A stretch of 64,000 bases of DNA from Bisgaard Taxon 45. Its GTDB lineage: Bacteria; Pseudomonadota; Gammaproteobacteria; Enterobacterales; Pasteurellaceae. Position 1 is the stretch's first letter. Each line of letters begins with the position of its first letter. Shown piece after piece: positions 38,014-40,485 of this stretch. Location of the stretch: the NCBI GenBank assembly GCA_030783905.1, contig JAQAHH010000006.1, positions 620,001 to 684,000 on the forward strand. The letters run 5' to 3'. Under the pieces are notes generated by a model. The model made no database searches. It worked only from the letters and a program-made list of their open reading frames with translations, and had not been told where the DNA came from. Position numbers and translations under genes: made by a program.

Positions 38014-38733
38014 TTAGTGTGTAACTGGACAGATGACATCCGCCTCAAGCCAATTTATCCAGGCTTGAGTTAAAATCGGCTGTAAGCTAGCGTGGTCAAC
38101 AATGATCTCCGCCAATGCTTGTGACAGATGTGATAAGGAAGTTGGTTGTTCAGCAAGGTAAGTCAGTAACCAAAAATCTAATTCGGACAGTTTCTGTTCC
38201 TTGACTTGAAAGTGTCGGTTACGCCAAATAATGATATGTGATGCGACTTGTTCAATCTGGCTAAAATGGCTGGATAAAAAATCCACTGCGTAACTTTTGA
38301 GAAAAACAGTTGGCGATAATTGCATTTCGGTCATTTCATTCCACGCTATCGGAGCGGCGAGATTTGCTTGTTCAACCTCAGCAAGCAGTTGAGTATATTC
38401 AAAATCCATTAGCGCTAAAACATCAGCAGAAAAATCACTCTGTGTTTGACAAAAAGTCAGAAATTCTCCCGCGATATCTTGGAAATAAGGGGAGGTGGCT
38501 TTCCCTTCTTGGATAAAACGCTCCTTCGTTTCTGCCCATGTTGATGCGGAAAGATGATTAGGCGCTTCAACAAAACAACGATCAATAAAACCAAAGGTAT
38601 TATTACGGACTAAGCGGGCATAGATAGCTAAACGCTGTGGGGCATAGCCATTTAAGGGGGTAGCATGACCTAGACGTACGGCTTTTGCTAACGCCGCTTG
38701 GGTTGCTTTGAGGGTTGAGGGTTTAGGCTGCAT
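38014..38733 (-). CDS. hvfC: DUF2063 partner protein of the MNIO enzyme (HvfC/BufC-like)
   Basis: A 239-residue cytoplasmic protein with an N-terminal DUF2063 DNA-binding-like fold (about 1-100; LAIYARLVRNNTFGFID and the FxFCQTQSDF segment) and a C-terminal winged region. In hvf and bufferin systems this partner binds the precursor peptide and delivers it to the DUF692 enzyme. The start overlaps hvfB by 11 bases, and the protein always travels with a DUF692 gene. It has no membrane segment. Last gene of the four-gene minus-strand operon. The assignment follows domain family and operon, the partner role is from work on homologues. Confidence 0.82.
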   Translation of the reverse strand: MQPKPSTLKATQAALAKAVRLGHATPLNGYAPQRLAIYARLVRNNTFGFIDRCFVEAPNHLSASTWAETKERFIQEGKATSPYFQDIAGEFLTFCQTQSDFSADVLALMDFEYTQLLAEVEQANLAAPIAWNEMTEMQLSPTVFLKSYAVDFLSSHFSQIEQVASHIIIWRNRHFQVKEQKLSELDFWLLTYLAEQPTSLSHLSQALAEIIVDHASLQPILTQAWINWLEADVICPVTH

Positions 38734-39646
38734 GGCGATTTTCCCCGGTCAGTTTAGTGTGTTTTTGTTGTAGTTGGGCAATATGTTCGACTTCTGCATA
38801 AAGCTCCGCAAACGGAGGAAAATTAAAATCGCGCTCAAGTAATGTCGGTGGAATATGCGGTAAGCGTTGATAAGCATAGTCTAATAAATCCCAAACATTA
38901 CCTTTTACTGCTTCACCATGTGTATCCACTAATAATTGCGGAAGATGACGATATTCACCTTTTATTTTATTAAAGGCTTCATCAGAAGGAGAAACTGGAT
39001 GTGTGGCACCATGTTCCTCATCGTGTCCTGCAATATGAATATAGTTGACTCGGCTAACATCAACATGGTCTAAAAAGACATAAGGATTGAGTAAGCCATG
39101 ATTGACCCCATTTACATAAATGTTATTCACATCTAAATGAATGCCACAATCAGCTTCTTGAGCAATAGCGTTTAGAAATTCGACTTCATTCATGGTACTA
39201 GTAGGCGAATGCAAATAATAGGACGTATTTTCTAAGGAAATTTGCATACCCAGAAAATCTTGTACATCACGAATACGCTGTGCTACATGTTTTACGGCTT
39301 CTTCCGTAAACGGCATGGGGAGTAAATCATAAAGGTGCCCGTCACATTCGCAATAACTTAAATGTTCAGAAAAAAAGACGGCATGATACTGGGTCATGAG
39401 TGCTTTAATACCCTGTAATAAGGCTTTATCTAATGGCGCTTGCCCACCTAAAGAGAGCGAAAGTCCATGAACCGCGAGTGGAAATCGTTCTGCCGCCTGA
39501 TCAAATTTATAGCGTGCTGCGCCACCCATTTTGATCCAATTTTCTGGTGCAACTTCCATAAAGTTAATGACACTGTTGTCGGGTAGTAATAAAAAATCGT
39601 CAGCGAGATCACGGCGATACCCTAAACCTGCACCTTGTAACATCAT
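38723..39646 (-). CDS. hvfB: DUF692 multinuclear non-heme iron oxidative enzyme (MNIO; HvfB/BufB-like)
   Basis: A 307-residue TIM-barrel enzyme of the DUF692/MNIO family, which uses two to three iron ions to convert peptidyl Cys into oxazolone/thioamide or thiooxazole groups. Candidate metal ligands are visible along the barrel: AVHGLSLS, SEHLSY, ISLENTSYY, LDVNNIYVN, HIAGHDEEHG, VDTHGEAV and ERDFN. It lies 59 bases after the repeat peptide gene, its likely substrate, and overlaps hvfC by 11 bases. Two adjacent ATG codons (39646, 39643) are possible starts. The closest characterised system is H. influenzae HvfABC, whose product binds copper. Enzymatic role inferred from family and operon. Confidence 0.88.
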   Translation of the reverse strand: MMLQGAGLGYRRDLADDFLLLPDNSVINFMEVAPENWIKMGGAARYKFDQAAERFPLAVHGLSLSLGGQAPLDKALLQGIKALMTQYHAVFFSEHLSYCECDGHLYDLLPMPFTEEAVKHVAQRIRDVQDFLGMQISLENTSYYLHSPTSTMNEVEFLNAIAQEADCGIHLDVNNIYVNGVNHGLLNPYVFLDHVDVSRVNYIHIAGHDEEHGATHPVSPSDEAFNKIKGEYRHLPQLLVDTHGEAVKGNVWDLLDYAYQRLPHIPPTLLERDFNFPPFAELYAEVEHIAQLQQKHTKLTGENRHAA

Positions 39647-39672
39647 ATTGACTCCATTATTCTGGTTAAAGT

Positions 39673-39695
39673 GCTGGTGTAATGTTTACACCAGC
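39673..39695 (-). terminator. Hairpin between hvfA and hvfB
   Basis: GCTGGTGTAA-TGT-TTACACCAGC, a perfect 10-bp stem right after the hvfA stop codon. No long T-run follows, so it probably causes partial termination or shields the hvfA mRNA 3' end, allowing far more peptide than enzyme. Confidence 0.6.
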
Positions 39696-39705
39696 AACCT
39701 TTGGG

Positions 39706-39996
39706 TTATTTAGACCCACATTTCCCTTCGCCACATTTCCCTTCTGCCGCTTTTGCTTTATGGTCATGTGCGCCACATTTACCCTCACCACATTTTCCTT
39801 CTGCCGCTTTTGCTTTGTGATCATGTGCACCGCATTTCCCTTCACCACATTTGCCTTCCGCTGCTTTGGTTTTCAGGCATTTTCCTTCCATGCATTGCTC
39901 AGCTTTCTCTGCTGATTTCATTTCTGCTTGTGCAGGTGCCGTTGCTGCCATGGTTAATGCACCCGCTAATGCGGCTAAAGTCGCTAATTTTTTCAT
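39706..39996 (-). CDS. hvfA: Secreted Cys-rich repeat precursor peptide (HvfA-like copper-binding RiPP)
   Basis: A 96-residue precursor. Residues 1-24 form a Sec signal peptide (MKKLATLAALAGALTM... ending APAQA). The mature part has eight Cys: Cys35, Cys40, then pairs at 50/55, 69/74 and 88/93. Six lie in EGKCG, one in EGKCL and one in EQCM. A 19-residue unit AAEGKCGEGKCGAHDHKAK occurs twice and a shortened copy ends the protein. In H. influenzae HvfA the EGKCG Cys are modified by HvfB/HvfC to copper-binding oxazolone/thioamide pairs, so up to six or seven such sites are expected here. AHDHK linkers add His residues. Shine-Dalgarno GGAGAT precedes the ATG. Confidence 0.9.
   Translation of the reverse strand: MKKLATLAALAGALTMAATAPAQAEMKSAEKAEQCMEGKCLKTKAAEGKCGEGKCGAHDHKAKAAEGKCGEGKCGAHDHKAKAAEGKCGEGKCGSK
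39709..39864 (-). repeat. 57-bp tandem repeat coding for the EGKCGEGKCGAHDHKAK unit
   Basis: Two full 57-bp units (residues 45-63 and 64-82) and a 42-bp partial unit (residues 83-96). Each unit carries two EGKCG metal motifs. The repeats differ only at synonymous positions, so copy number could change by slippage or recombination, altering the number of copper sites. Confidence 0.93.
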
Positions 39997-40035
39997 CTTT
40001 AATCTCCTATATAAGTGTATGAATAAATTTATTTT

Positions 40036-40485
40036 TTACTGATTTAAAGCGGAGGATTTTCGCTGCAATAACGTATCTACAGCGAATATACCTGCCCCTT
40101 GAGTGATTAATGGTAACAAGGTGACAATATAAATTAATGCCATTTTGTAACCATTACTACACACGTTATAACCCGCGCCTGCATGTACGCTGTACCAAGC
40201 AACAGCGGTTAATACGGTTAAGCTGAATGCACTCCAGCGAGTGAAAAAACCGAGGATGAGGAAGAACGGCAATAAGAGTTCTGCCCCCATCGCCAATGTC
40301 CAATTAAGATCGCTTGGGATGAGATTGAAGGGGAAAGGAAAACTTTCTTGTATTTCCATAAACCAGTTTTCGCCTCTCCATTTTTCTTTACCCGATTCAA
40401 AAAACTCCCAAGCGAGAAAAAGACGTAAACCAAGTAGGCCGATGCCCGTGCCAATCCGTTGGATGTTGGAATTTGTCTTATACAT
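40036..40485 (-). CDS. hvfD: DoxX-family membrane protein of the hvf operon
   Basis: A 149-residue DoxX-like integral membrane protein with four hydrophobic helices. The first is LGLRLFLAWEFFESGKEKW, typical of the DoxX start (G..R....W.F...G..K). Others lie near residues 66-84, 90-105 and 115-140. DoxX proteins are often associated with bufferin-type operons, where they may handle redox or oxidation steps at the membrane; the precise role is unknown. It is the first gene of the minus-strand operon, 39 bases before the repeat-peptide gene. The leader upstream carries two inverted repeats. Confidence 0.82.
   Translation of the reverse strand: MYKTNSNIQRIGTGIGLLGLRLFLAWEFFESGKEKWRGENWFMEIQESFPFPFNLIPSDLNWTLAMGAELLLPFFLILGFFTRWSAFSLTVLTAVAWYSVHAGAGYNVCSNGYKMALIYIVTLLPLITQGAGIFAVDTLLQRKSSALNQ

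Follow-up and report, generated by a model that had tools for sequence, protein, structure and literature searches.

The closest described relative of the operon considered here is the hvfXABC (oxazolin) system of Haemophilus influenzae (PMC13419390, PMC7907618; PMC12452194 and PMC11024254 were also drawn on). Its secreted precursor, HvfA, contains three AEGKCGEGKCG motifs and is modified more as the full-length form than without its signal peptide; the product at the EGKCG cysteines, published for H. influenzae and Neisseria gonorrhoeae, is 5-thiooxazole and not oxazolone/thioamide; and residues N175, D242 and H244 of HvfB, a multinuclear non-haem iron enzyme (MNIO), are essential, as changing them abolished activity (PMC13419390). 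The H. influenzae operon ordered doxX, COG3767, COG3220, DUF2063 is controlled, together with msrAB, by the sigma factor RpoE2 and its anti-sigma factor HrsE under hypochlorite, with all four genes being RpoE2-dependent under this stress and the msrAB promoter being activated by RpoE2 in reporter assays in strain Hi2019 (PMC7907618); domain names and locus comparison suggest that this doxX operon (RS07455-RS07470) is hvfXABC. In Neisseria meningitidis, a doxX gene and three hypothetical genes share one operon with sigma-E and its anti-sigma factor (PMC2893595, PMC3240639), and this operon (NMB2140-2145) and the gonophorin system resemble the present case in placing DoxX and three further genes under an extracytoplasmic function (ECF) sigma factor controlled by a zinc anti-sigma (ZAS) factor, in a predicted promoter of partly similar sequence, and in the presence of MsrA/B in the regulon (PMC2893595, PMC3240639, PMC13097082). 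Cu(I) binding has been published for related thiooxazole peptides (PMC13419390, PMC13097082). We analysed a 64,000-nucleotide (nt) window (G000:C6:620001-684000) of a 2.24-Mb genome, of which the stretch at 38014-40485, on the minus strand, holds a complete four-gene set for a ribosomally synthesized and post-translationally modified peptide (RiPP), hvfX-hvfA-hvfB-hvfC (Table 1). What is new in this locus is the predicted regulon and a hairpin, not the peptide.

Very probably the set is an operon for oxazolin, an EGKCG captophorin, in a Pasteurella near P. multocida. HvfB together with HvfC would convert the six EGKCG cysteines of HvfA by oxidation into 5-thiooxazoles that bind copper, and RpoE2 would likely drive transcription once its zinc anti-sigma factor is oxidised; the operon is likely a complete and ordinary representative of the known family, not a metallophore of a new kind. 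Four minus-strand open reading frames (ORFs), separated by 39 and 59 bases and, for hvfB/hvfC, overlapping by 11 bases (38723-38733), encode proteins that all exceed the NCBIfam equivalog cut-offs for HvfX, HvfA, HvfB and HvfC, in agreement with an earlier note on this DNA that had described a complete hvf-type operon with that overlap. The label 'bufferin-class' in the same description is loose, because the enzyme scores 252.8 bits against the bufferin-maturase (BufB) cut-off of 310 and the precursor has no match in a Pfam search, and thus no DUF2282; bufferins (DUF2282, BufBC) are likewise Sec-exported copper peptides with cysteine-based thiooxazoles, produced by an MNIO together with a DUF2063 protein, but from a different precursor family. 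HvfC matches DUF2063 (59.7 bits) and NGO1945_C (51.7 bits) in Pfam; the best PDB matches are 3bww for HvfB (E 3.1e-154) and 3dee for HvfC (E 5.2e-42). HvfX is likely a membrane accessory of maturation or redox function.

Identity to H. influenzae HI-5290 (locus L009) is 83.3% for HvfB, 61.2% for HvfX and 55.9% for HvfC. A gene order and repeat number distinct from those of H. influenzae, both proposed by the earlier note, can be ruled out: the DoxX gene comes first there as well (RS07455-RS07470; L009), the order X-A-B-C is shared by all 21 non-duplicate loci in which each of the four genes was matched (window included), and the HvfA of L009 likewise has six EGKCG in three AEGKCGEGKCG blocks. 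The count of six in the window's precursor was correct; the motifs form three AEGKCGEGKCG blocks with AHDHKAK linkers between them, behind a predicted Sec-type signal peptide, judged by eye, with a predicted cut after AQA at residue 24. A DoxX match follows the enzyme in L040, L043 and L046, which are distant MNIO loci without hvfA or hvfC matches. The conservation of the enzyme's metal ligands also holds, in that N175, D241 and H243 of the window's HvfB align with N175, D242 and H244 of H. influenzae HvfB, 16 H/D/E/N positions are identical in 40 of 40 MNIO sequences from the fetched loci (window included), N182 and D241 are kept in 39 of the 40, and an alignment check for ligand loss found none. 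The oxazolone/thioamide structure that had been assigned to the cysteines has since been revised in print to 5-thiooxazole. By analogy with the H. influenzae and Neisseria systems, modification of the cysteines, binding of Cu(I) and induction by hypochlorite would extend to the window's operon, whose product would limit copper and oxidant damage in the periplasm.

The closest named relatives by HvfB include P. canis and P. oralis (86%) and Haemophilus species (85-87%), among matches from which the window's own genome or one very near it may be missing; the HvfB of the congener G005 shares 96% with that of the window. The best and third-best precursor matches (P0001 and P0003) bear the name P. 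multocida. No description of an hvf operon in Pasteurella was found in the literature searched, as judged from titles and listings; the operon was to be expected there, since the public record P0003, from a close relative, is already named as an oxazolone/thioamide-modified RiPP. Across 61 genomes of the family Pasteurellaceae, 17 have hvfB, one of these being a distant relative (37%).

Three features escaped the earlier note: an adjacent sigma/anti-sigma pair, a stable hairpin in the hvfA-hvfB gap, and variation in the number of EGKCG motifs. The pair (37193-37945) is, by sequence, orthologous to RpoE2/HrsE, which is known to regulate hvf in H. influenzae. The window's sigma factor is 65% identical to its best H. 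influenzae match, with the sole other match there being distant (27%); each of 11 relatives examined has one close and one distant match, and G063 is the one genome of the wider set with two close matches. Whereas the sigma and anti-sigma genes of Neisseria are the last two of the operon itself, the pair in the window is convergent to the operon, as it is in 6 of 6 Pasteurella genomes searched; elsewhere it lies in the same direction after hvfC (L012, L013, L015, L017, L028) or before hvfX (L030). No pair was found within the available flanks of the Haemophilus, Aggregatibacter, Ursidibacter and Mesocricetibacter hvf loci; thus in H. influenzae L009 the pair is outside the available flanks, whereas in the window it adjoins the operon. 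All 17 hvfB genomes fall among the 43 of 61 with an RpoE2 match (Fisher one-sided P = 0.0008, uncorrected for relatedness). Sigma-dependent transcription of the operon in Pasteurella is the subject of no report found in the literature searched.

A candidate promoter would connect this pair to the operon. The pattern common upstream of hvfX in relatives, TGTAAGAA-N14/15-CGWCTAA, has a single zero-mismatch site in the window, at 40754-40783 before hvfX (2 sites versus 0.24 expected with up to two mismatches), and is also exact 40 nt before msrAB in H. influenzae HI-5290. The neisserial sigma-E promoter has a -35 element GTMAGBWTT, a spacer of 12-13 and a -10 element CGTCTAAH (PMC2893595); read against that neisserial consensus, the window copy is GTAAGAAAT-N13-CGACTAAT, which agrees in spacing and differs in 3 of 17 letters, of which two are in the -35 element and one is in the -10 element. 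Two tandem sites precede hvfX in P. canis, P. oralis and genome G001, and the window's nearer tandem site appears degraded (CGACGCAT at about 40622-40629). Three candidate elements in the 269-nt leader were rejected: a cysteine-containing leader peptide, as small ORFs at corresponding positions in the window and in G005 differ in sequence or in frame and no clear ribosome site was seen; an Rfam element, as only tRNA was found in 36000-42000; and an inverted repeat noted by eye, TTTCCGTAT...ATACGGAAA, which is lost in the aligned G005 leader.

In the 61 family genomes, the exact pattern occurs 33 times, versus 2 for the reversed control pattern, and 32 of the 33 sites precede one of six kinds of gene: hvfX (11), msrAB (7), a Met-rich secreted ORF (7), msrP (4, including one at a distance of 467 nt with a small ORF in between), a DUF417 gene (2) and a DUF2282 bufferin precursor (1). 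Downstream hvfX, msrAB, msrP and DUF417 genes were identified by tblastn and the others by reading ORFs; for three sites without a locus of their own, the class was taken from the same positions under L077, L107 and L108, with G043 and G060 treated as one genome for L108 because contig, coordinates and letters coincide at three other sites. The site that precedes nothing is in G073, a genome without an RpoE2 match. A site is present in 17 of the 43 genomes having RpoE2, versus 1 of the 18 lacking a match (P = 0.006, uncorrected for relatedness). With looser spacing, the whole genome of the window has four sites (reversed control, 1), at hvfX, msrP, a DUF417 gene and inside a reading frame. Exact sites stand 40 nt before the gene for a 139-residue DUF417 protein (L075, G000:C6) and 73 nt before msrP (L077, G000:C9); therefore, these two genes are predicted targets of the window's sigma factor, and in Pasteurella MsrP and the DUF417 membrane protein would join the RpoE2 regulon as new members. 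The similarity of the DUF417 protein to the RclC model is weak (36.1 bits; cut-off 275). No exact RpoE2-type site accompanies the sole SelR (MsrB) gene of this genome, whose locus holds two matches with 3 mismatches.

One promoter pattern links copper-binding RiPPs, Met-rich peptides and methionine-sulfoxide repair in one predicted hypochlorite regulon, and with a single regulon predicted, the question of why bleach-type stress induces a copper peptide becomes directly testable. Our confidence is evenly divided on the fuller proposal that throughout the Pasteurellaceae a single zinc-switched sigma factor, RpoE2, governs a periplasmic shield of sulphur peptides whose components are interchangeable (in the window and in Haemophilus the EGKCG thiooxazole peptide, in one other genus a DUF2282 bufferin, and elsewhere Met/Lys-rich peptides), each paired with the methionine-sulfoxide reductase of its own genus (MsrAB in Haemophilus, MsrP in Pasteurella), while the conserved hairpin sets precursor above enzyme and gain or loss of a 57-bp repeat changes the number of copper sites between strains.

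Several observations weigh against reading the locus as an oxazolin operon driven by RpoE2, mostly against the regulatory part. The exact site is absent from 26 of the 43 RpoE2 genomes, which suggests that the pattern is too strict or that the promoter is variable; before hvfX itself it is absent in 3 of 16 genomes, where near-matches were seen by eye. The window's promoter departs from the neisserial consensus at the three letters mentioned above and stands 269 nt from hvfX, versus 30-106 nt at other hvfX sites save those of G005 (270) and G002 (290), so that it is also farther from the gene than in H. influenzae. No such site accompanies the window's rpoE2, even when 4 mismatches are allowed. 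In H. influenzae HI-5290, sites occur at hvfX and msrAB only, not at other reported targets. A set of 15 genomes yielded one further in-frame site (L090), while L106 repeats the in-frame site of the window's genome. Finally, the signal peptide cut of HvfA is a call made by eye.

The sites before other secreted products merit separate mention. Small secreted Met/Lys-rich ORFs with the pattern upstream occur in several Pasteurellaceae (L113, L114, L115, L120, L121, L124, L129), with 25-31% Met after residue 25, and resemble the hypochlorite-sink peptides MrpX/BcrX; those of L113 and L114 sit upstream of an rpoE2 gene, and that of L121, the one tested, has no Pfam match. At L117 (G069:C11), a DUF2282 bufferin precursor has an RpoE2-type site 89 nt upstream, a distant MNIO (37%) beside it and an RpoE2 match on the same contig.

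The hvfA-hvfB gap contains a hairpin with an 11-bp perfect stem, and comparable stability is found in relatives, with a fold z of -2.5 or lower in 25 of 26 measured loci (the exception being L034), several of which are close relatives; the stem sequences differ between genera. As a control, the hvfX-hvfA gap, which is shorter, reaches z of -2 or lower in 0 of 18 measured loci. An intrinsic terminator was considered and rejected, as the hairpin is absent from the terminator-scan list and has no U-run. We infer that it could be a transcript-end-protecting or processing element that raises precursor over enzyme message. Among the titles listed in the literature searched, none concerns a hairpin in these operons.

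The number of modification sites varies as well. Among fetched motif-bearing precursors, EGKCG numbers 4 to 12 per precursor (L018 has none, and the unreadable L032 precursor is outside the count). The number looks labile within a narrower group, since records named P. multocida hold 5 (P0001), 4 (P0003) and 3 (P0007, from a metagenome assembly) versus 6 in the window, with the caveat that assemblies may have collapsed repeats; the number of copper sites may accordingly vary by strain through the 57-bp repeat array within hvfA. Precursors near that of the window (P0001, P0003, P0004, P0005 and P0007) have 3 to 5 EGKCG each.

The proposed mechanism is as follows: periplasmic oxidants would release RpoE2 from the zinc anti-sigma factor; the freed RpoE2 would direct transcription of hvfXABC; modification of HvfA by HvfBC would take place in the cytosol; the modified peptide would be exported and would bind Cu(I); and the hairpin would allow precursor message to be kept in excess of enzyme message.

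Other functions can be envisaged for the peptide. Of the 33 sites with the promoter pattern, 7 lie ahead of Met/Lys-rich secreted ORFs and 11 ahead of methionine-sulfoxide reductase genes, such Met-rich peptides have been proposed to scavenge hypochlorite through self-oxidation (PMC8315932), and the doxX operon of H. influenzae is induced by hypochlorite (PMC7907618); HvfA could therefore be mainly a sacrificial oxidant sink in the hypochlorite response, like MrpX/BcrX, with copper binding secondary. We consider this unlikely, because dedicated enzymes make thiooxazoles, which bind copper in related systems, from the cysteines, whereas a plain thiol sink needs no HvfB/HvfC. A distinct metallophore, in which His-containing AHDHKAK linkers add Cu(II), Zn or Ni sites beside the thiooxazoles and change the choice of metal, is less probable still. 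The earlier note was right that the His linkers set the window apart from H. influenzae: two linkers in the window's HvfA hold four His, versus none in L009, and each of the six Pasteurella genomes read encodes an HvfA with His linkers, in the form AHDHK, THDHK, AHGDK or AHDTK. However, linker sequence varies freely from genus to genus, and the six motifs, type of signal peptide, enzyme, partner and gene order are all the same as in H. influenzae.

A copper-uptake chalkophore like methanobactin (MbnABC) would share with hvf an MNIO that oxidises cysteines of a RiPP precursor, and the window's enzyme does match the MbnB model, but at 38.3 bits, far under the cut-off of 325. MbnA has no Sec signal, unlike HvfA, and methanobactin has a different partner (MbnC) and serves copper scavenging, whereas 5-thiooxazole pathways are often induced by excess copper or gold or by oxidative stress (PMC13097082); such a function is thus highly improbable here.

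Table 1. Features of the hvf locus and its regulator (window coordinates)
Feature	Position	Strand	Evidence
hvfX, DoxX-family membrane protein	40036..40485	-	149 aa; PF07681 (DoxX) 84.2 bits; NF050144 134.9 bits, cut-off 80
hvfA, secreted precursor	39706..39996	-	96 aa; NF050188 163.2 bits, cut-off 95
57-bp tandem array coding AAEGKCGEGKCGAHDHKAK units, 2.7 copies, within hvfA	39716..39867	-	Tandem Repeats Finder
Hairpin between hvfA and hvfB, 11-bp perfect stem, no U-tract	39672..39696	-	Gap fold z = -4.6; 0/200 shuffles as stable
hvfB, MNIO (DUF692)	38723..39646	-	307 aa; PF05114 (MbnB_TglH_ChrH) 322.6 bits; NCBIfam HvfB 370.1 bits, cut-off 360
hvfC, DUF2063/RiPP recognition element (RRE) partner	38014..38733	-	239 aa; NF050145 166.5 bits, cut-off 142
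Predicted RpoE2 promoter, TGTAAGAA-N15-CGACTAA, 269 nt before hvfX ATG	40754..40783	-	Pattern scan
rpoE2 orthologue, ECF sigma factor, convergent to operon	37193..37744	+	NF009182 308 bits, cut-off 264
hrsE-like zinc anti-sigma factor, 66 aa, ZAS motif C4-X25-H30-X3-C34-X2-C37	37745..37945	+	NF052368 57.8 bits, cut-off 50; ZAS pattern
Terminator-like inverted repeat built on uptake-type 9-mer, between convergent hvfC and anti-sigma genes	37949..37983	.	Terminator scan, both strands; AAGTGCGGT at 37948-37956

The sequence AAGTGCGGT, which we take to be the Haemophilus-type DNA uptake 9-mer, has 25 copies in the window versus 0.46 expected, one of them in the terminator-like repeat at 37948-37983. 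On the other side of the operon, a two-component pair at 40959-42990 is divergent from hvfX, with the promoter region between them; its response regulator scores best on the QseB model, below the cut-off, and the accompanying ORF resembles a sensor kinase by eye.

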